Positions 1-36,813 of a stretch of DNA of 41,997 bases are shown here, one piece after another. The position numbers were made by a program, and so were the translations under genes. The stretch spans positions 1-41,997 of the forward strand of contig CAIWAD010000082.1 in assembly GCA_903910645.1 (NCBI GenBank), given 5' to 3'. The notes under the pieces are model-generated. The model did not search any database. It saw nothing but the letters and a program-made list of their open reading frames with translations, and was not told the origin of the DNA. Source of the stretch: an uncultured bacterium. GTDB lineage: Bacteria > CAIWAD01. How positions within the stretch are numbered: the first letter of the stretch is position 1; every line of letters begins with the position of its first letter.

Positions 1-330
1 CGGCACGCGCTTCTCCAGCATGACATGGGCCATGCCCTTGGCGCTCTCGCTCATGACCACATCAAAGTGCGGCGTGGCACCGCGAATGATGGCACCCAGG
101 CAAATGATGGCGTCCACTCCGCCCTTGTCCGCCAGCTTGGCAGCAGCCAGGGGAATTTCGAAGGCACCTGGCACACGCACCACGGTGACCGTGTCCCGGT
201 TGCCGCCATGGCGCTCGATGCAATCCAGCGCACCTTCCAGCAGACGCCCGCCAATGAGGTCATTGAAGCGCCCCAGCACAATGGCGAAGCGCCTTGAGTC
301 GGCGCGCAAGTGTCCGTTGATCTCAATCAT
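1..330 (-). CDS. ribH: 6,7-dimethyl-8-ribityllumazine synthase, 3' end cut by window
   Basis: Lumazine synthase condenses 5-amino-6-ribitylamino-uracil with 3,4-dihydroxy-2-butanone 4-phosphate, the penultimate step of riboflavin synthesis, in the cytosol. The 110 visible residues show the family pattern: FAIVLGRFN near residue 15, [14 protein letters not shown] near 50, and [16 protein letters not shown] near 77-92 with the catalytic-region His after Thr-Pro. Family members are about 155 residues, so roughly the last third lies outside the window. The ATG at 330 is preceded by AGAAGGAA, a good ribosome binding site. In a normal rib operon it would follow ribBA directly. Here a 2.4 kb segment carrying an opposite-strand AT-rich gene separates the two, so ribH may need its own promoter; I see no strong one. 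Confidence 0.95.
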
Positions 331-539
331 GGCCGTTTCCTTCTGAACTGTGCTCGATGGGGATGATTTAACGAAAAGCAAGGGTTGGAAAAACGCGGTC
401 GAACAAAGCTCCGAATCATCCAGAAAGACTGGACTTAGAAATAATTTCGCAGTATCCTTGTGCAAAGAATTTTACTTCGAATCTGGTTCTGCTTTCACAG
501 GTCCACGCCCCAGCATCCTGTGGCGGAAAGGAGTTGTAG
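331..539. other. AT-richer spacer between ribH and the Sel1-repeat gene
   Basis: This spacer separates the divergent starts of ribH (minus) and the Sel1-repeat gene (plus). Base composition falls from the G+C-rich ribH side to the AT-rich Sel1 side within it. It should hold promoters for both genes, but I could not find a convincing -35/-10 pair. A small open frame crossing it on the plus strand has no recognisable protein features. Confidence 0.4.
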
Positions 540-2753
540 ATGAAGATTTCGAAACGCTGGTCAAACATGTCAACTACTTATATTTCAATATTTTTCACTA
601 TTATAGTTTTGAATTTACCAATTTGCGCCACATCTAACGCCGCGCAACAAGAAGTTAATACTGATGAAGGGTTTAACAAGGCTTGCGCTTTAATTGAATC
701 TAATTCGAAAGATGGAATTAATGAAGCATTAAAACTGTTAAAAATCTCAGCAAAAAATGGCAACCTTAATGCCGCAAGTAAAGTCGGAGAGATTTACTTT
801 AGCAAGAAAAATTGGTTTTACAATATAATTGCCATTCAATATTTGTCGAAAGGTATCAAACAGAATCATCCAGAGTCTTGTGTAGCCATGGCTAATTTCT
901 ATTTGGACAGAAAAAAACCAAAAATCAACAAGGGGCTTGAATTTTTAGATAAAGCCGATTATAACCAAAACGGATATGCAAAGGCAAATCTGGCGAAGTT
1001 CTACAGCAATGCTAGATTTGGCAAATCAAATGACTCGTTGAGTACTGAATTATATAAAGCAGGATCAATGCTTGAAGACAAAATTTGCATGTTTGAATAT
1101 GGGAAGCTCTTATTCGATCAATCTGAAAGCACCGTTTTTGAAGGTGTTAAATTAATCCAATCATCGGCCAACAAAGGCTACATTCCCGCCACGAATTATA
1201 TGCAGCATATTTCCGACAGCCTTTGTGCATTGAATGAGAAATCATTCATGAGGCAATATGATGCTATCATTTATCTGATTGAAAACAATGAATCAATGCG
1301 AACCAACCTCTTGGAAAAGTTAGCATTGTCGATGATTAGAACAAATGATGAAAGACTGGAATCAACACTAAAGGATCTCGAAGATGCTGGAATAAAAACA
1401 GGTTTTGATTTATGCAAGGAAATCTTGGCAAACAAGATTGATCTATCGAACAAGCAAGTTATGCATAACTGCTATTTGGAGAAAATTGAATCTGGTGACT
1501 TAAACGCTATTTGTGGGTATTTAACAGATTTCACAAACGGCAGCTTTAATGATATGAATTCAAACTACATAGATCTTTGTCTTTCATCTGGTGATGAATG
1601 CTGCTTTCCTGAGTTTGAGGACATCAAAAAATTGCTATCCATTACAATAATATACAAACTGAACGAACACATAGGGACTGACTCATTCGAATCCATAGAC
1701 ATGGAAAACAACCTGTTTAATAATATTATTGTAAGCGACAGTAATATTGATAATTGCGTCTTAGTACTTAATAAACTGACAAAATACAACAGTAAGGCGC
1801 TATTAAAGACTCTATTCTGCACCTATCTACTTTACGATTCAAATGTCATCAAAGAGAGTGATCTTGGAGAAATTTCTACAAGTGTGAGGCAGCACAAGAG
1901 GTCTGATTATGTTCAAACACGTGATGAAATCATCAATGATGTAATATCCACAAATAGAGTATTAATTAAGAGGGAGATTCAAAGTCCATACATTTGGATG
2001 GGGTCAGAAGATTCGAATCTGAAATTTAACTATCAAATAAACAGCAATGCATTTGACAGATCGTTAAGTATTATAAGATTTTTTTCTGGCGATATAGACT
2101 CTATCGAACATGTACTCTCGAAGTTCTATTTAGCCAAAGGCGTACTTAATTCGAAGGATAAATCAAAGTGCGAAGAGTATTTCAATATGTCATATTATTA
2201 CGCATCTCAAGACAGCACCTTTTTAAATTGTGAAACTTATGCGCTTTTGGCCGCTCTTCATTCAATCAACAATTCTCCATACTTTGACTTATCTAAGGCC
2301 AGGTCTTATATTCTCAAAATGGATGGAGGAATTTGTGATCCAATCCTTAAGAAGTTCTTTAAGGAATCAATAAATAATGAATCTGAATCACAATTGAGCG
2401 TCGAAGATGTGGCGTATCTAGAGAAGGCCGCAAATTCAGGTGATATTGATAGTGCAATAAAACTCGGCGCCATTTATTCAAATAAAGACGGGAAAAGCTA
2501 TAACCTTACAAAGGCATTACATACATATCAATTGGCGGAAAGAAAATCGGGAATTGCATGTTATAGAATTGCTAAGATTCATAATGAGTTCGGCGACCCT
2601 TTGGACTTTGTACTGGAATACCTCTACTCCGCTCAATCGCTGGGATATGACGCGGATGATTTAATGAGTCTTATCAGCGAACTTGAACACAAATTAGATC
2701 GTGATAAAGTGGGACAAGCCTCCCAGCGTGCCATGGAGCGTACAACGCCATAA
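540..2753 (+). CDS. Secreted Sel1-repeat (TPR-like) protein, AT-rich
   Basis: This is a 737-residue protein. Its N-terminus has basic residues followed by a hydrophobic stretch (about residues 12-35, ending near SNAA), consistent with a signal peptide and export. The rest is helical repeats of Sel1 type, clearest near residues 45-90 (EALKLLKISAKNGN, then AASKVGEIYF) and 615-700 (YLEKAANSGDIDSA, then KALHTYQLAERKSG). Sel1 repeats normally form protein-binding solenoids; no enzyme motif is visible. The ATG follows AAAGGAG at a good distance. G+C is about one third, far below its neighbours, and codons are A/T-ending. Only the last ~16 codons (from about 2706) return to the G+C-rich style. It lies antisense within the riboflavin operon, ending 1 nt from the ribBA stop. 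Acquisition by transfer is likely; the function is unknown. Confidence 0.8.
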   Translation: MKISKRWSNMSTTYISIFFTIIVLNLPICATSNAAQQEVNTDEGFNKACALIESNSKDGINEALKLLKISAKNGNLNAASKVGEIYFSKKNWFYNIIAIQYLSKGIKQNHPESCVAMANFYLDRKKPKINKGLEFLDKADYNQNGYAKANLAKFYSNARFGKSNDSLSTELYKAGSMLEDKICMFEYGKLLFDQSESTVFEGVKLIQSSANKGYIPATNYMQHISDSLCALNEKSFMRQYDAIIYLIENNESMRTNLLEKLALSMIRTNDERLESTLKDLEDAGIKTGFDLCKEILANKIDLSNKQVMHNCYLEKIESGDLNAICGYLTDFTNGSFNDMNSNYIDLCLSSGDECCFPEFEDIKKLLSITIIYKLNEHIGTDSFESIDMENNLFNNIIVSDSNIDNCVLVLNKLTKYNSKALLKTLFCTYLLYDSNVIKESDLGEISTSVRQHKRSDYVQTRDEIINDVISTNRVLIKREIQSPYIWMGSEDSNLKFNYQINSNAFDRSLSIIRFFSGDIDSIEHVLSKFYLAKGVLNSKDKSKCEEYFNMSYYYASQDSTFLNCETYALLAALHSINNSPYFDLSKARSYILKMDGGICDPILKKFFKESINNESESQLSVEDVAYLEKAANSGDIDSAIKLGAIYSNKDGKSYNLTKALHTYQLAERKSGIACYRIAKIHNEFGDPLDFVLEYLYSAQSLGYDADDLMSLISELEHKLDRDKVGQASQRAMERTTP

Positions 2754-2754
2754 C

Positions 2755-3954
2755 CTACATGTTCAGCATGTGGCCCAGCTTGTTCATTTTCGTGCGAAGA
2801 TAGTGCTCGTTGAAGGCGCCATGCGGCACCTGCAAGGGCACGCGATCCGTCACTTCAATACCAAAGCCCTTCAGCCCCACAATCTTGCGTGGATTGTTGG
2901 TGAGCAGCCGGATGCGACTTAGGCCCAGATCCTGCAGGATTTGGGCCCCAATGCCGTAATGGCGCAAGTCCGGCGCGAACCCAAGACGCTCGTTGGCCTC
3001 CACCGTGTCCGCCCCTTCATCCTGCAAGGCGTAGGCCTTCAGCTTGTTGGCCAAGCCAATGCCACGCCCCTCCTGGCGCATGTACAAAACCACGCCCACC
3101 CCCTCCTCGGCCACCATGCGCATGGCGTGGTGCAGCTGGTTGCCGCAGTCGCAGCGCATGCTGCCGAAGACATCCCCCGTCAGGCACTCGCTGTGCACGC
3201 GCACCAGCACGGGCTGCTCCGCAGCGGCGGGATCCCCCATCACCAGGGCCAGATGGTCGCGCTTGTCCACAGGGCTGTAGAAGTGGTGCATGGTGAACTC
3301 GCCCCACGGCGTGGGCATGCGCACCTGGGTACGCTCCAGCACCTGGCTTTCATGGGCGCGGCGCCAGGCAATGAGATCCTCGATGGTGATCATGCGCAGA
3401 CCGAAGTTCTCCTTCACACGCAACAGATCAGGGACCCGCGCCATGGTGCCGTCGTCGTTCATGATCTCGCACAGCACTCCCACGGGCTGCAATCCGGCCA
3501 GACGCGCCAGATCCACCGAGGCCTCCGTGTGCCCGGCGCGCTGCAGCACGCCACCGCGTGCGGCCATGAGCGGATGGATGTGGCCGGGCCGCGCCAGATC
3601 CGCGGGCTGCGCCGTGGGATCCGCCAGGGTCTTCAGGGTAATGGCGCGATCGGCGGCGCTGATGCCCGTGCTGGTCCCCTGCCGGGCATCCACACTCACC
3701 GTGAATGCGGTGGCGTGGAGGGCGGTGTTCTGGCCCACCATCAGCTCCAGCTCCAATGCCTGGCAACGCTCGCGGCCAAGGCTTGCGCAAATCATGCCGC
3801 GACCATGCTTGGCCATGAAGTTCACGCGCTCCGGCGTGGCGGCCTCGGCGGCCATGATGAAATCGCCTTCGTTCTCGCGGTCTGCATCGTCCACCACAAT
3901 GATCATCTCGCCCTGGGCGATGGCGGACAGGGCGTCTTCAATGGAGTCAAACAC
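2755..3954 (-). CDS. ribBA: Bifunctional 3,4-dihydroxy-2-butanone 4-phosphate synthase / GTP cyclohydrolase II
   Basis: The protein is a 399-residue fusion, the usual RibBA length. It makes both precursors of riboflavin, from ribulose 5-phosphate and from GTP. The N-terminal DHBP synthase half carries [11 protein letters not shown] at residues 22-32 and the [14 protein letters not shown] motif at 142-155. The C-terminal GTP cyclohydrolase II half has the zinc cysteines C257, C268 and C270 ([14 protein letters not shown]), then [14 protein letters not shown] and LLTNNPRK. I chose GTG at 3954 because AAGGAAG lies just upstream and the residues before it overlap ribE without resembling the family. 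Sixteen bases separate it from the ribE stop, so it is part of the ribD-ribE-ribBA transcript under the FMN riboswitch. Its stop abuts the end of the inserted Sel1 gene. Confidence 0.96.
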
Positions 3955-3970
3955 GCGGATCTTCCTTTCG

Positions 3971-4642
3971 TCAATATCCAAGGCGGGACAAGGCGTCCAT
4001 GCCCAGCGAGTCGCCCGTGTCCCGGGCGGCGCCTCCGTGGGCGAGCAACTGCTCCACATACTTGGCCAGGCAATCGAATTCAATGTTCAACGCGCCACCT
4101 GGACGCAGCCCGCCCAGCAGCGTGTGTTCCAGGGTGTAGGGAATGAGCGCCACCTGAGCGCGGCCCTCGCCGCCCTCCTGTCGGGCATGCGCCGCCACGG
4201 TAAGGCTGACTCCGTCCAGGCAGATGGATCCCGTGCGGGCCACATAGCGCAGAAACTGCGCGGGAAAGGCCACCTCCATTTCCATGCCCAGCGCTTTGCG
4301 ATCCAGCCGCACAACGCGGCCCGTGCAATCCACATGACCCTGCACCAAGTGGCCGCCCAGCCTTGTGGACAGGGTCAGGGCCCGTTCCAGATGCACGCGC
4401 ATGCCGGTTGCCAAAGCCCCCAGCGTTGTCTTGGACAAGGTCTCGCCCACCGCCTGGAGCTCCACCTGGCCACCGAGGCGATCCACCTCCACGGCTGTCA
4501 GGCAGACGCCATTCACCATCAGGCTGTCCTCGGGCTTCAAATCCTCCAACACCCTGGCGGCCTGAAGACGCAATCGCCGACCGTCCCCGTCACTGCGCAG
4601 GGCCTGCACAAGCCCCATTTCCTCCACAATGCCCGTGAACAT
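3971..4642 (-). CDS. ribE: Riboflavin synthase, alpha subunit
   Basis: Riboflavin synthase dismutates two molecules of 6,7-dimethyl-8-ribityllumazine to riboflavin and the ribitylamino-uracil precursor. The 223-residue protein begins with the diagnostic MFTGIVEE. It has two lumazine-binding repeats: the first runs to about residue 95 ([16 protein letters not shown]), the second from about 98 ([35 protein letters not shown]). Length and layout match the family. The ATG at 4642 overlaps the ribD stop as TGATG, so the two genes are likely translationally coupled. The gene is sometimes named ribC in other species. Confidence 0.96.
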
Positions 4643-5751
4643 CAGCAATCTCCCTTCGGCCGCCAGACATGCCATGAATCCGCGCCAAGTCTGCGCGACA
4701 GGCCAAGCCTCCACTCCGACAACAGCGTACCGCCGGGCATTTCCACGCAAGGCACGCCTCGACCCAACAGAAGCGGCGCGGTGACAATGTGGATCTCGTC
4801 CACAAGGCCCGCCTCCAGGAAGGCGCCATGCACCTTGGCGCCGCCTTCCACCAACAGGCCGTCCAGTCCCAGCGCCAGGGCCTGGGCCATGACCCAATCC
4901 AAGGGGGGATGGGAGGAAGCATGCACCGCCACGCCCACTCCGCAGGCCTGCAGGGCCCTTACTCGTGAAGCCGGCGCATGGGATCCGCACAGCACGGTGA
5001 GGGCTTGTTCCCCGGCGCTGCGCACCAGCCGGCTTTCCAGCGGCAGCCGCGCCCGGGAGTCCAGCACCAGGCGATGCGGTGCGCGACCCTGGATCTGTCC
5101 TTTGGGAAGATCGAGCCCCAGGCGCGGATCGTCGGCCAGCGCGGTGCCAATGCCCACCAGCAAACCCGGATGCGCCGCACGCAGCCGAAGCGTCTCCAGG
5201 CGACTCTGCGCTCCGCTGAGCAGAGTGCGCGCCCCCGCCATGGCCGCAATGCGTCCGTCCAGGCTCTGCGCCCACTTCAGCGTGATCCAGGGACGCCCGC
5301 GCTCCATGCGCCGGAAAAAGTTGCGGTTCAGCTCACGCGCCTCCCGGGCCAGCAAGCCGCTGTGGGTCTCCACGCCGCCCCGCCGCAAGGCCGCCAGCCC
5401 CTGTCCCGCCACAAGAGGATTGGGATCCACCGTGGCCACCACCACCCGCGCGATGCCCCGTTCAAGGATCAGCTCGGTGCAGGGACCCGTGCGACCATGG
5501 TGGCAGCAGGGCTCAAGGCTCACCACCAAATCAGCGCCACGGGACAGATGTGCCGGAATTCCACGCAGGCACTCCACCTCGGCGTGCCCGCTCCCCGCCC
5601 GGCGATGGAAGCCCTCCGCCACCACTTGGCCATCCTTGAGAAGCACGGCCCCCACCATGGGATTGGGGGCGGCGCCGCCACGGCCCAATTCGGCCAGAGC
5701 CAGGGCGCGGCGCATGACGGCGGTCCAGAGGGAGATGGGCGCTACGGACAT
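4642..5751 (-). CDS. ribD: Bifunctional riboflavin deaminase / pyrimidine reductase
   Basis: RibD deaminates and then reduces the pyrimidine intermediate after GTP cyclohydrolase II. The 369-residue protein has an N-terminal cytidine-deaminase-like zinc domain: HAEV at residues 56-59, then PCCHHGRTGPC with C82 and C91 as ligands. The C-terminal reductase domain starts near residue 150 (PWITLKWAQSLDGRIA) and includes GLLVEGGAKVHGAFL near 295. I chose the ATG at 5751 because the residues before it lack family similarity. Its ribosome binding site is weak (GAGG) and lies in a possible hairpin. First gene of the operon, downstream of an FMN riboswitch, ending in a TGATG overlap with ribE. Confidence 0.95.
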   Translation of the reverse strand: MSVAPISLWTAVMRRALALAELGRGGAAPNPMVGAVLLKDGQVVAEGFHRRAGSGHAEVECLRGIPAHLSRGADLVVSLEPCCHHGRTGPCTELILERGIARVVVATVDPNPLVAGQGLAALRRGGVETHSGLLAREARELNRNFFRRMERGRPWITLKWAQSLDGRIAAMAGARTLLSGAQSRLETLRLRAAHPGLLVGIGTALADDPRLGLDLPKGQIQGRAPHRLVLDSRARLPLESRLVRSAGEQALTVLCGSHAPASRVRALQACGVGVAVHASSHPPLDWVMAQALALGLDGLLVEGGAKVHGAFLEAGLVDEIHIVTAPLLLGRGVPCVEMPGGTLLSEWRLGLSRRLGADSWHVWRPKGDC

Positions 5752-5752
5752 G

Positions 5753-5789
5753 AAGGCCTCGCGATGGGCGGGGCGGAAGGGCAGGCCTT
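5753..5789 (-). promoter_or_regulatory. Possible SD-sequestering hairpin before ribD
   Basis: On the minus strand AAGGCCT (5789-5783) can pair with AGGCCTT (5759-5753). The second arm covers the weak GAGG ribosome binding site and ends 1 nt before the ribD ATG. It lies between the FMN riboswitch and ribD, so it could be a translational expression platform. The repeat is seen; the regulatory role is inference. Confidence 0.4.
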
Positions 5790-5842
5790 GGCGCGGCATG
5801 CGCCCGCACCCAGTGGGCACAGGAGCATGCGGGTTGTTGCGA

Positions 5843-5989
5843 AGGCCGTCTTCCTCTCATCCGGGCTCTCACCGTCGGCGTCCGGATTTCACGGACTCGG
5901 CCCCGCGCCATGGCCCATGCGGGCAAAAGGCAAGGGGTTCGCGGGCTGTCACCGCCGGCTGGGACTTTCACCCAACCCCGGAAAACGAC
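5843..5989 (-). promoter_or_regulatory. FMN riboswitch (RFN element)
   Basis: Read on the minus strand, the segment contains the conserved RFN blocks in order: GGTGAAAGTCCC, GCCGGCGGTGACAGCCCGCGA, GTGAAATCCGGAC, GCCGACGGTGAGAG and CCCGGATGAGAGGAAG. The closing P1 stem is visible: GTCGTTTTCC (5989-5980) pairs with GGAAGACGGC (5852-5843), with G-U pairs. FMN binding to this class represses riboflavin genes downstream. Here it precedes ribD by 91 nt. No strong intrinsic terminator follows, so control may be at translation. Confidence 0.93.
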
Positions 5990-6042
5990 TTGGAACCGCG
6001 CAGAAGTTAGGTCGGGGTGTCCACTTCCCCAAGCCCATGGAA

Positions 6043-6062
6043 AGGGCGCCCGTGGGCGCCCT
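6043..6062 (-). terminator. Likely intrinsic terminator after the hybrid kinase gene
   Basis: On the minus strand AGGGCGCC, loop CACG, GGCGCCCT forms an 8-bp G+C-rich stem followed by TTCC. It lies just after the stop at 6084 and before the FMN riboswitch. The U-run is short, so efficiency is uncertain. Confidence 0.6.
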
Positions 6063-6083
6063 GACACTGCATGAGGATCGGCA

Positions 6084-9000
6084 TCAGGTTTCCTGGTCCA
6101 GGCGCTGTCTCACGCGACGCGCCAATTCCGCCGCGCTGAAGGGCTTCTGCAACAAGGGCGTCTTGGCGGGATCCAGACCGTAGCGGTCCAGCGAGTCATC
6201 CGTGTAGCCGCTCATGAACAGGACCCGCAAATCGGGGATGCGCGCCGTCAGGACGCTGGCCAGTTCCGGCCCGCCCATGCCCGGCATGATGACATCGGAG
6301 AGCAGCAGATCGAAACGACCCTCCTGCCGATTGACCAACTCCAGCGCTTCCGCCGCGCTGGCAGCCGCCACGACCTGGTAGCCAAGAGAGGAAAGGATGC
6401 GCCGGGTGACTTCCCGCACCGGCGGCTCGTCCTCCACCAGCAGCACATTCTCCTGACCCGCGCCCGAAGGTCCATCGTCCTTGCCGTCCTGGTTGGCGTT
6501 GGCCTGGCTGGCGGCGATGGGCAAATAGACATGGAAGGCCGTTCCCGAACCCGTGCGGCTGAACACATCGATGAAGCCGTCGCTCTGCTGCACAATGCCC
6601 AGCACCGTGGAGAGGCCAAGACCCGTGCCCTTGCCCTGCTCCTTGGTGGTGAAGAATGGCTCGAAGATGCGGGCCTGCACCTCTTCGCTCATGCCGCTGC
6701 CCGTGTCGCTCACCGTCATGCGCAGGAAGCGTCCTGGACGACTGTTGGGATGGCTGCGGCAGAAATTCTCGTCCACTTCCGCCGGACGCAGCTCGATGTC
6801 CACATGGCCGCCGCCGTTCATGGCGTCGCGGGCATTCACCACCAGGTTCACCACCACGGATTCCAGCTGGCTGGGATCCACGCGCACCTTGGGAAGGTTG
6901 GGCGGCAGGCTGGTGGCCAGCGCGATGTCTTCGCCAATCAAGCGGCGCAGCATCTTCTCCAGGCCGCGGATCACTTCGGCCATGTCCAGGGTGCGGGGCT
7001 CCAACACCTGCTTGCGGCTGAAGGCCAGCAGTTGCCTGGTAAGCGCCGCCGCCCGCTCTCCGGCATCGCGGATGTCGCCCAACAGCATGCGGTGCGGATC
7101 GTCCGCGCCCATGGAGTTGATGAGCATCTCGCTGTAGCCGTTGATGACGGTAAGCAGGTTGTTGAAGTCGTGGGCCACGCCACCTGCCAGCTGGCCGATG
7201 GCTTCCATTTTCTGGGACTGGCGCAACTGCATCTCCAGCCGCATCAGATCCGTCACATTGGACCAGCTGCCCACCACTTCCAGGGGCTTGTCCTGGGAAT
7301 CGCGCAACACGCGCCGCTCGTCCCGCAGCCAGATGTACTCTCCATCCTTGCGCCGCAGGCGGAAACTCACGGTGCTGGCCTGCTCGTTCAGCAAGGAGGC
7401 TTCCGCCTCCTGCAGGCGCTGCCGGTCCTCCGGATGGACGCGCTCCGACCACCAAGCGGGCCCGATCTCATCCACCGAGAAACCGGAGAGCTGAAGGATG
7501 TTCTCGCTTATCCAGGAGGGGAACCAGCGTCCCGCCGTCATGCGCAGGGTGTAGATCACCGCGGGGCCCAGGCTTACCACCCGCTGCAATTCCTCCTGCA
7601 GGCGCCGGCGCACAATGAACTGGCCAATCTGCCGTCCAATGGCCTCCAGGGACTCCAGCAGTGGGGCATCGGGCTCCGCCATGGGGCGGCAAATGAAATC
7701 CAGCACGCCCATCACTTCACCTGCATGCTCCACCGGAACACCGAAGGCGCAAGTAAGGCCGCTGTGGGTGGCGGCTTCCCGCCGGATGTAGTTCTGGTCC
7801 CCGGCCACATTCATCACCACCAGGGAGCTGCGGCTTGCCCATACCCGGCCCGGCAGGCCTTCTCCCGGCTCGAAGCGGTTGTAGCGGGTTTCACCCACAA
7901 TGCCGCTGTCCGCCAAATGGTCTCTGCACCACAACTCGCTGCAGCGCAACACGCCTTCCTGCCGCTCCACGGTCCACAGCGCGCCAATGTCCCAGCCTTC
8001 GGCCTCACAGAGCACTTGCACAACCCTTCGTGTGGCCTCTTCCAGTGTGGCCGCCTCCGCCAGCACCTGGCTGATGCGCGCCTGGGTGGCCACCCGCTGC
8101 TCCGCCTCGGCACGGGCCGTGATGTCCCGATCTACCCCGCGATAGCCCACCAGCTGGCCTTCCGCGTCAAGAATGGGGGCGCCACTAGTCTCCAGCACCA
8201 GACGACGCCCGTCCCGCCGACGGACCACATTGATGAGGCCGGCGAAAGGCTCTCGACGCCGCCAGATGCCGCCAAAGGTTTCCACCGCCATCACGGCGAC
8301 TTCCGGATCCATGAAATCGGTGGGCGAGTGGCCCAGCACCTCATCCGGATCCCAGCCGAAGAGTTCGCGGGACTTGGGACTGGCGTAGGTGTAGCACCCC
8401 ATGGCGTCCAGTTCCCAGATCCAGTCGTAAGTGGTCTCCACCAGGTCGCGGTAGCGGGCCTCGCTGGCGCGCAGGGCCTGCTCCGATTCGTGGCGGGCCG
8501 TGATGTCCTGGGTGGTGCCAATGAACACATGCAGCTTCCTGTTGCTGCTTGGGGGAGGGCGATAGGTCTGTGCGTTCACCAGCAGCCACCGGTAACTGCC
8601 GTCCGCCTGCACCACCCGCAGTTCCAGCACGGCCTTGAAGTCAGGATCATCCTGCATGGTGCGCATGGTCCGTTCCACCATGGCGCGGTCATCCACATGG
8701 ACGCTATCCAGCGGATGTGGCCAGCCCACCAATCGTTCCGACTGCTGGAAGTGGGCGGCCGCTCGTTCATCCATCTGGAACTGGCCCAGATCCAGATCGT
8801 GCTGCCATGTCCCTTGCCCAGCCGCGTCCAGAGCCAGCCACAGACGCTCCTCGCCCTCACGCAGCGCACGCTCCGCCTGTTTGCGTTCAAATGTGGAGGA
8901 CAAGAGGTTGGCCACCGCCTGCAGCACATGGACCTCTTCCGTGGTCCATTCCCGGGCTTCCCGCACCGCGTCGAAGCCCACAAAGCCCTCCAGGTGCTCC

Positions 9001-33889: not shown

Positions 33890-34174
33890 GCGGGACTCCC
33901 GTCAAGTGACAACACAGGCCAAGCACCCCGCCCTTGCAGATGGAACACCCGTGGCGGACACTTGCCGCACGGTGTCGACAAAGCTCTTGTACTGCAGGTT
34001 AGGCCGATGATTGTACCAGCGACACGCGCCGCAGGCGTTAGCACAATGCATGCCAATTTCAGAAAAGCCTGTGAGGTCAAGGATCTGCTGTCCATTGATG
34101 GAACGCCCCAAAAGTACACAAGTGTTCGTATTAAAAGGTGACATGTTCTAAGAGCCTGCGGAAATTGCGAAAAG

Positions 34175-34208
34175 GACGGGCACGGAATGGCTCTGTCCCA
34201 TGCCCGTC
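34175..34208. repeat. Inverted repeat with minus-strand T-run
   Basis: GACGGGCA (34175-34182) and TGCCCGTC (34201-34208) are perfect inverted repeats with an 18-nt loop. On the minus strand the stem is followed by CTTTTCGC, so it could act as a terminator there. It is first in the hairpin run. Confidence 0.5.
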
Positions 34209-34265
34209 ATGAGCAGTTCCTTCAGCGTTGGAAATGCAGAAATAGATTGATTCAAAGCGTGGACA

Positions 34266-34320
34266 GGCTAAAAAGCATGAGGCCCTCTGGTTTCCCAAAG
34301 GACCTCACACATTGGGGGGG
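34266..34320. repeat. Hairpin element A
   Basis: GGCTAAAAAGCATG leads into a stem TGAGG...CCTCA (34278-34282 with 34303-34307), then CACATTGGGGGGG. The flanks closely match element B at 34571-34629 although the stem sequences differ. On the minus strand the stem is followed by TGCTTTTTAG. Confidence 0.5.
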
Positions 34321-34380
34321 CACTTTTTCCATTGTCTGTGCAATGGTGGCTGCGAATTCTCGCCTCATCGTTGCATACAT

Positions 34381-34405
34381 CATGCCAAAAGAATGTGCTG
34401 GCATG
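34381..34405. repeat. Inverted repeat, 7 bp arms
   Basis: CATGCCA (34381-34387) and TGGCATG (34399-34405) are perfect inverted repeats with an 11-nt loop. It is part of the hairpin run. A smaller CCATTG/CAATGG pair precedes it at 34329-34346. Confidence 0.4.
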
Positions 34406-34421
34406 CGAGAGGTATCCCTGC

Positions 34422-34470
34422 GGGCATGTTTCATAATGAGGCGCTTTTTGGTGTTTTTTGAAACATGCCC
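34422..34470. repeat. Inverted repeat, 11 bp arms
   Basis: GGGCATGTTTC (34422-34432) and GAAACATGCCC (34460-34470) are perfect inverted repeats around a 27-nt T-rich loop. This is the second longest stem in the region. Function is unknown; it could be part of a structured RNA or a binding site. Confidence 0.5.
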
Positions 34471-34570
34471 TCTAATAGACCACCAGCCGTCTGGAAGGGA
34501 GCCTGCCGCCGACGATGCCAACCCATGCCCGTGTGGTAGTTTAACATGTTGATTATCAATGGCTTTATCT

Positions 34571-34629
34571 GGCCTAAAAACATGCAAAGGGCCCGAACAT
34601 CTCTGTTTGGGCCCTTTGCAATTGGGGGG
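34571..34629. repeat. Hairpin element B
   Basis: GGCCTAAAAACATG leads into perfect 12-bp arms TGCAAAGGGCCC (34583-34594) and GGGCCCTTTGCA (34609-34620), with ATTGGGGGG following. The minus strand reads a T-run (TGTTTTTAGG) after the stem, so a minus-strand terminator is possible, yet no minus-strand gene lies upstream of it. The flanks match element A. Confidence 0.55.
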
Positions 34630-34785
34630 ATGAATCAGCGCGTCACAATTTCAAAGTCGCTTAGAGCACAATCCATGCCACTTTTGACTCCTCCCCCTCA
34701 ACTGCCAAGGACAAGGCCTCCTTAACCCTGTCCGTGGCGGATTCCAGTCCTTAGCTTCTATCCATCCAATTCACGCGAGGACGCC

Positions 34786-36813
34786 ATGAAGCACTACCAA
34801 TTGAGTCTGTGGAACTGGGTGCCCTTCACGCATAAAGGGCGGTTTCACCAGCGCTCTTGCTCCTCGTTTACACTTACGCTGATTGCCGCCCTGTTCACTG
34901 CCGCACTGGCTCAGGCCTTGCCCGTGAAGGATCCCGCTTTGCTGGGTTTTGCGGAGCAAATAGATCGTCAGGCTCACAATCCCTTCACCCTGGAACAGTT
35001 GAGCGCCTGCGTGGTGGAGGAAAAGGGAGCCCTGGTACTGGATCTTTACCGCGTGGGACAGACCGTGGATGGCCGCACGCTGGAGGCAAGCCGGTTGGTG
35101 GGCGAGGTCTGTGCGGGGCCTTGGCCCTTCATGGCGGCGGAAACGGGTTACGCCTACCGCCGCTTCCGCCTGGACAAGCGCCTGGAGGCGGGACAGGTGG
35201 AGCTGCCGCTGAAGGGCTTGTTCAACCTCAACATCAACAGCGAGGCTTGGACGGACACGGCCTCCGTGCTGGTGCGCCTGGACCTTCGCCTGGCGAGGAA
35301 AGGGGCCGACGAGGACCTGATGTGCGCCGACCTTCCGCTACGCTTCCACCGTGATGCGAAGGGCCTGCACCGGTTGCCGGCCCTGTTGGAGGGCCCGCTC
35401 CTGTGCAAAGTGGACAGTCGACGGCCCGGCGACCTGACCGTGGCCCTGAAGACAGACCTGCCCGCCGCCGTGGCCGTGGAAGTGGAAGGGGTGGGGACCA
35501 CGCCAAGCAAGGCCGACGGACCTTCCCATGAAGTGGCCCTGACAGGTCTGCCCACGGATTGTCCCTTGCGCTACCGCGTGCTGCTGGATGGCTGCGCCGC
35601 CACGGAATGGCTGGACTTCCGCCTGCCCGGCGCGAAAGGAAAGGCTGTGCGCCTGGCCTACTTCGGGGACAGCCGCGAAGCGGATGGTGGCGGGGACCGC
35701 GCCCACATGGGCATCAATCTGCACGCCCTGGAGTTGCTGCTGGGCCAGGCCCATGTCCAGGGTGCGGAGGCCCTGCTCTTTGGCGGAGACCTTATCAGCG
35801 GCTACACCATCTGGCCGGAGGATTTCCGCAGCCAGCTGCAGGCATGGAAGCAGGCCGCACTGGGTTTCTGGCGGGAACGCCCGGTCTTTACGGGAATTGG
35901 CAACCACGAGACCCTCTTGCGCATTTACAAAGGGAAGGAAGTGGACTGGCTGGGCATGGATCGCTGGCCCTACGCAACCCAGAGCGCCGAGGCTTTGTTC
36001 GCGCGAGAGATGTGCAACCCGGAGAATGGCCCGGAGCAGCCCGACACGGAGCTTCCCGGTTACGCCGAGACGGTGTTCAGCACGCGCCTGGGCTGCGTGA
36101 CAGCCATTTTCTTCAACAACACCTGGTGGTACAACGAGCATGAGGAACTGACGGGCGGTTGCCCCCAGGGCCACATCCTGGAGGACCAGTTGCAGTGGCT
36201 GGAAGAGGAGATTCGCGCCGCGGACGCCGATCCGGCCTGTCGCCACATCCTCTTCATCGCCCACGAGCCGCCTTTTCCAATGGGCGGCCATGTGAAGGAC
36301 AGCATGTGGCATGGTGGCGACAACGGGGTGCGGCCCTGGCGCCTGGCTGAGGACGGCCAGTTGGTGGCCCTGGCGCCGGGCATTGTGGAGCAGCGCAACC
36401 GGCTGGTGCGCCTCTTCGCCAACAGCCCCAAGAGCGCTGCGGTACTGGCTGGCCACGAACACGCCTACGCCCGACTCCTGCTGACTCCGGAGACACCTGC
36501 TGGTGATCCCGCCCGGGACGATGCCGACGGTGATGGCCGACTGTGCGAGACAGGGGAATCCTGCAGCCCAGTGCCTGGCTTGAAGCGCCCGCTTTGGTTT
36601 CTCATCGGTGGCGGCGCTTCGCCCTACTACGCCAAGGAGCCCACACCCTGGGCCAGCTGGTGGGAAGCCCGCCCGGACGCCGCGCGTGGCAGCTTCTACA
36701 CATCCCAGGAAGCTCTGCTGCTCTTCGATGCGGATGAACGGGGCATGAGCCTGCGCGTGCTGAATCCCTTTGGTGAGGAAGTGGATCGCGTGGAGAACCT
36801 TAGAACTCCTTGA
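34786..36813 (+). CDS. Secreted calcineurin-like metallophosphoesterase
   Basis: A 675-residue protein. A hydrophobic segment near residues 27-45 (FTLTLIAALFTAALAQA) suggests a signal peptide after an unusually long N-region, so export is likely. Residues 55-285 are a beta-rich N-terminal part. The phosphoesterase domain follows with all metal-binding motifs: YFGDSRE (D295), GGDLI (D335), GNHE (N373, H374), AHEPP (H493) and GHEHAY (H557, H559). Between GHEH and the C-terminus lies DADGDGRLCETGE, which resembles a calcium-binding EF-hand loop. Such enzymes hydrolyse phosphomonoesters or diesters; the substrate is unknown. The ATG at 34786 follows GAGGACG. It begins after the hairpin-rich intergenic region. 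Confidence 0.85.
   Translation: MKHYQLSLWNWVPFTHKGRFHQRSCSSFTLTLIAALFTAALAQALPVKDPALLGFAEQIDRQAHNPFTLEQLSACVVEEKGALVLDLYRVGQTVDGRTLEASRLVGEVCAGPWPFMAAETGYAYRRFRLDKRLEAGQVELPLKGLFNLNINSEAWTDTASVLVRLDLRLARKGADEDLMCADLPLRFHRDAKGLHRLPALLEGPLLCKVDSRRPGDLTVALKTDLPAAVAVEVEGVGTTPSKADGPSHEVALTGLPTDCPLRYRVLLDGCAATEWLDFRLPGAKGKAVRLAYFGDSREADGGGDRAHMGINLHALELLLGQAHVQGAEALLFGGDLISGYTIWPEDFRSQLQAWKQAALGFWRERPVFTGIGNHETLLRIYKGKEVDWLGMDRWPYATQSAEALFAREMCNPENGPEQPDTELPGYAETVFSTRLGCVTAIFFNNTWWYNEHEELTGGCPQGHILEDQLQWLEEEIRAADADPACRHILFIAHEPPFPMGGHVKDSMWHGGDNGVRPWRLAEDGQLVALAPGIVEQRNRLVRLFANSPKSAAVLAGHEHAYARLLLTPETPAGDPARDDADGDGRLCETGESCSPVPGLKRPLWFLIGGGASPYYAKEPTPWASWWEARPDAARGSFYTSQEALLLFDADERGMSLRVLNPFGEEVDRVENLRTP

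Follow-up and report, generated by a model that had tools for sequence, protein, structure and literature searches.

In the genome of the uncultured bacterium investigated here, the riboflavin biosynthesis genes ribBA and ribH, both encoded on the minus strand, are separated by an AT-rich segment which is filled by a single intact open reading frame on the plus strand, i.e. a gene of opposite orientation is placed inside a same-strand operon. The explanation which we consider to be well founded as a whole, and distinctly probable, is the insertion of one foreign gene predicted to encode an exported Sel1-like solenoid, by which ribH would have become partly uncoupled from the FMN riboswitch heading the operon.

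The interrupted riboflavin locus

The window, i.e. the whole stretch of 41,997 bp that was analysed, corresponds to the complete contig C82 of an assembly which comprises 2.96 Mb in 296 contigs. Its minus strand carries, in the direction of transcription, an FMN riboswitch (5845..5989; RF00050, 93.8 bits), which is the only one found in the genome, followed by ribD (4642..5820; RibD_C with E = 5e-35, deaminase domain with E = 1e-13), the riboflavin synthase gene ribE (3971..4642; located from its open reading frame and start position, and named from position and sequence) and ribBA (2755..3954; NF006803, E = 1.5e-189; GTG as putative start codon). As stated in the original prediction, these three genes are tightly packed with no more than 16 bp between them. 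Codons 1-110 of ribH are present at positions 1..330 of the minus strand (TIGR00114, E = 5e-34), while the remainder is found on contig C175. The genome contains one ribH locus, the search having returned two contig pieces of a single gene; a second ribH and a second FMN riboswitch were sought throughout the genome and neither was found.

Two-state segmentation by G+C content places the borders of the inserted segment (about 2.35 kb, no strand assigned) at positions 363..2708, from which the limits of 345 and 2705 predicted from inspection of the letters deviate by no more than about 20 bases. The segment has a G+C content of 35% versus 64.4% for the genome. Calculated per 1-kb window over about 937 kb of the genome, the mean G+C content amounts to 0.644 with a standard deviation of 0.034, and the 1-kb windows within the insert (G+C of about 0.345) are found 8.7 standard deviations below this mean, by which the predicted G+C content of one third and its abrupt contrast to the neighbouring genes are confirmed. 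Elsewhere in the window, at positions 34001-35000, a response-regulator gene of the sigma-54 type and a metallophosphoesterase-like open reading frame flank a mild dip in G+C content (0.50-0.53); no clear gene of its own is seen at this site.

The gene occupying the segment (540..2753, plus strand) consists of 737 codons and is preceded by a probable Shine-Dalgarno sequence, AAGGAG (528..533, plus strand), read from the sequence 6 nt before the ATG at position 540. This open reading frame is not a product of chance because 736 open codons would arise at its composition with a log10 P of about -23, and because the remaining five frames over the same stretch contain 35 to 86 stops each. Its G+C content is 0.357 and its GC3 0.37, compared to a GC3 of 0.76-0.83 in the four host genes for which this value was computed. 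The relative codon adaptiveness of the gene is 0.256 versus 0.61-0.72 in these four host genes, three of which constitute the codon reference set so that ribH alone (0.642) provides an independent value. In both measures the gene is thus unlike its host. It is arranged tail to tail with ribBA, the two stop codons being separated by 1 bp. As its final 15 or so codons are of host-like composition and stop 1 base before the stop codon of ribBA, the gene may have lost its original 3' end.

For comparison, four relatives (G001 to G004) were available, two of which belong to the same genus, one to the same family and one to the same class, the phylum being represented by five genomes in the collection. 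In each of them ribBA and ribH are adjacent on the same strand, the distance from the ribBA stop to the ribH start amounting to 10 bp in G001, about 90 bp in G002, 39 bp in G003 and 62 bp in G004. The rib locus is headed by an FMN riboswitch in all four, and in none of them is the inserted gene present, be it at this tight and empty junction or anywhere else in the genome. In a broader sample of 109 loci, the fetched DNA includes both ribBA and ribH in 84 cases, and in 82 of these 84 the gap between the two genes is shorter than 300 bp; separation of ribH from ribBA is hence not a regular trait. Locus L069, from the MAG of another bacterium, shows a gap of 1651 bp with an open reading frame at about 5236-6444; considered as a counterpart of the insertion, it was rejected since this frame lies on the same strand and resembles a multi-spanning membrane protein.

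Because ribBA and ribH are adjacent in all four relatives, because the gene is absent from them and because the gap is short in the vast majority of the sampled loci, the segment, as judged from gene order, is a lineage-specific insertion which occurred after divergence from the nearest relatives compared. The recent acquisition postulated in the original prediction is therefore supported by the intact junction and the missing gene in these relatives as well as by the non-host codon usage.

Expression of ribH

As reconstructed from the gene order, the ancestral arrangement clearly coupled ribH to the riboswitch. At present, 2.4 kb harbouring a gene on the opposite strand lie between ribBA and ribH, and the sole riboswitch is still located upstream of ribD. 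Two outcomes fit this situation, namely read-through from the upstream rib genes into ribH or a new ribH promoter within positions 331-539. These positions correspond to the divergent intergenic region between ribH on the minus and the inserted gene on the plus strand (209 bp, G+C of 0.47), which is the nearest possible site for a promoter of ribH's own. A promoter scan of positions 1-6200 yielded 9 promoter-like sites versus 4.5 expected, with AT-rich DNA giving rise to chance matches; the site nearest to ribH (498-469, minus strand) is weak and of a type that matches at chance level. Long untranslated read-through RNA is usually terminated by Rho, for which reason we lean slightly towards an at least partial uncoupling of ribH from the riboswitch. 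The original prediction had assumed that ribH lost, or must replace, control by the FMN riboswitch. This assumption is half supported: the ancestral coupling holds and the genome has one riboswitch and one ribH, but the loss itself is one of two possibilities, as read-through would preserve control.

It is conceivable, though rather unlikely in our view, that ribD, ribE, ribBA and ribH form a noncontiguous operon, giving one transcript which would run antisense through the inserted gene. In this case ribH would stay under FMN control, and the two mRNAs would interfere with each other through colliding polymerases and through cleavage by RNase III. Between ribBA and ribH, the minus strand revealed no convincing intrinsic terminator, and read-through is therefore possible; neither the hairpins at the end of ribBA (z = -0.21) nor those in the leader of ribH exceed shuffled sequences in stability. 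Moreover, the orientation of ribH is unchanged and the riboswitch has remained intact. Such a transcript would, however, be untranslated for about 2.4 kb, a situation in which termination by Rho is the usual outcome, and since the insertion is lineage-specific there is no conservation that would argue for a regulatory role. The geometry as such is that of the noncontiguous operon menE-menC-MW1733-ytkD-MW1731 from Staphylococcus aureus (PMC7154746). We give little credence to the further idea that FMN-controlled read-through serves ribH and simultaneously acts antisense on the exported repeat protein, a recent chance insertion thereby having coupled flavin status to an envelope protein.

According to the course of events which we favour, an operon consisting of ribD-ribE-ribBA-ribH and controlled by an FMN riboswitch would have received a foreign gene of low G+C content, inserted in opposite orientation into the short spacer between ribBA and ribH, recently enough that the codon usage of this gene has yet to adjust. 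Upon insertion, ribBA would have become the tail-to-tail and ribH the head-to-head neighbour of the new gene, and the single-copy ribH would now depend mainly on a promoter within the divergent region of 209 bp for its expression, at least in part independently of the riboswitch.

Origin and route of entry

The inserted gene was very probably acquired from another organism. Its designation as foreign is based on composition and on absence from the four relatives, since neither a donor nor a full-length homologue was found in GTDB contigs, viral contigs (close-relative scans by means of exact short patterns), phages (tblastn), plasmids and 386 sampled genomes, the whole-genome sample being sparse across families.

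With respect to the mode of entry, it appears distinctly unlikely that the gene was carried in by a small mobile element, or entered through site-specific insertion, with a direct repeat marking the boundaries, a scenario which would be compatible with our preferred explanation. An imperfect 19-bp direct repeat (16 of 19 positions identical) is present near both borders of the segment, its left copy at 356..374 and its right copy at 2649..2667 (both plus strand), and provides a weak lead to the insertion mechanism. When zone pairs of this size were drawn at random from the segment, only 0.9% contained an equally good match, a proportion which refers to zones chosen after the repeat had been seen. 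In addition, other AT-rich islands of the genome, on contigs C214 and C30, adjoin transposase or integrase genes. Against this route, the right copy of the repeat is situated within coding sequence, in the 3'-terminal part of the inserted open reading frame, and a transposase or recombinase in the insert, inverted ends at its borders and a second copy in the genome were all looked for and none was found. The segment consists of a single open reading frame devoid of a transposase or recombinase domain and lacks inverted ends, and is thus not classified as a mobile element.

The possibility that the gene is an old native one which has disappeared from the four sampled relatives, and that its low G+C content stems from peculiarities of the protein or from missing expression rather than from transfer, draws on the small number of relatives in a phylum of five genomes, but it is very improbable as it demands independent losses in several lineages, each cleanly restoring a short ribBA-ribH spacer, and as a GC3 of 0.37 versus about 0.8 is not explicable by protein composition.

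Equally improbable is an artefact of assembly, in which the insert would be chimeric or derive from a contaminant sequence fused to the riboflavin operon. It is true that the assembly is split into 296 contigs and that C82 begins inside ribH, just 330 bp from the start of this gene, where an exact 141-nt overlap (window positions 1-141) with the end of C175 (locus L138), which carries ribH codons 64-154, marks a graph break. The insert is, however, flanked on either side by the genes that adjoin each other in the relatives with identical order and strand, such that two independent false joins at one spot would be needed, and it comprises one clean gene equipped with a ribosome-binding site of its own. 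The overlap looks like an assembly-graph break at k = 141, perhaps due to strain variation near the insert.

The number of AT-rich islands observed in the genome is a lower bound. The second of them (C214, locus L216, about 2000-5700) reaches a G+C content as low as 0.34 and is located beside DDE transposase and rve integrase genes; it contains three open reading frames resembling lipoproteins or exported proteins, one of which shows a sub-threshold match to a HYDIN/VesB-like Ig domain. The third, milder AT-rich stretch (C30, locus L168, about 5250-8500) lies beside an rve integrase open reading frame and contains small membrane-protein-like frames.

The encoded protein and comparison with known systems

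The product of the inserted gene is probably an alpha-solenoid with degenerate Sel1-like repeats. A hydrophobic stretch at its N-terminus (540..650, plus strand), which in the translation read by eye resembles a signal peptide that signal peptidase I may cleave after SNA, suggests that the protein is exported. Searched with the whole protein, Pfam Sel1 (PF08238) yields 13.2 bits (E = 0.15) and, with residues 36-187, 18.8 bits (E = 0.0025), both values being below the cut-off of 30.7, so that the gathering score of the family is not reached. The initial label of a Sel1-repeat gene therefore stands as a resemblance at the level of the fold and fails as a family assignment by the curated Pfam cut-off. 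SEL1L matches residues 624-682 (E = 0.0026) and bacterial Sel1 structures were matched as well; a protein of 1129 aa from genome G096 which contains repeats of the Sel1 type was matched with E = 5e-4, and the plasmid search gave three short matches to SEL1-like or TPR-type proteins. The weak Sel1-type matches fall at residues ~45-90, 58-177 and 620-690, i.e. at both ends of the protein. It is the convergence of these several independent weak hits on Sel1 or TPR proteins that the Sel1-like reading is based on.

AlphaFold run without an alignment produced all-helical models of low confidence (mean pLDDT of 44 and 55). When these low-confidence models were submitted to Foldseek, Sel1 proteins ranked high, with TM-scores below 0.3 for the Sel1 matches, and the top match for residues 36-290 was a Sel1 repeat protein. 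NCBIfam and PADLOC returned nothing for the inserted protein. A search of the bacterium's own genome for the Sel1 family gave no match at E <= 0.001, hence the inserted gene is not one member of a recognisable Sel1 family there. Most likely, the protein functions as an envelope scaffold, a regulator or an interaction protein.

In its probable signal peptide and predicted all-helical repeats it is akin to secreted or periplasmic Sel1-repeat proteins such as ExoR (PMC4550343), HcpC, AlgK and c5321 from Escherichia coli. HcpC, c5321 and AlgK are among its Foldseek matches, and its Sel1-like stretches are situated at residues ~45-90 and 620-690. Unlike these four proteins, it comprises 737 amino acids with degenerate repeats scoring below the cut-off, and over its long central part no repeats are recognisable; the likeness to these named proteins lies in predicted features.

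As an event, the insertion is of a known kind. An ordinary transfer of an AT-rich single gene into a GC-rich bacterium likewise brings about an abrupt change in composition, alien codon usage, absence from relatives and a clean empty site, and the gene as such is an ordinary orphan. What differs from such a transfer, and makes the case of interest, is the unusual place, antisense inside a conserved biosynthetic operon and upstream of a single-copy gene, with neither mobility gene nor donor found. With a foreign gene breaking open an operon junction that is usually tight, and with a single-copy biosynthetic gene lying downstream of the break, the locus represents a clean natural experiment, in which promoter rewiring versus read-through is directly testable and which bears on the survival of an essential gene after its separation from the operon.

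The closest parallel in gene arrangement is the noncontiguous S. aureus operon, for which co-transcription has been shown (PMC7154746). Common to both is one opposite-strand gene among the operon genes of a cofactor pathway. In contrast to the S. aureus case, the arrangement described here is attributed to a recent insertion, affects a riboswitch operon and is known from gene order.
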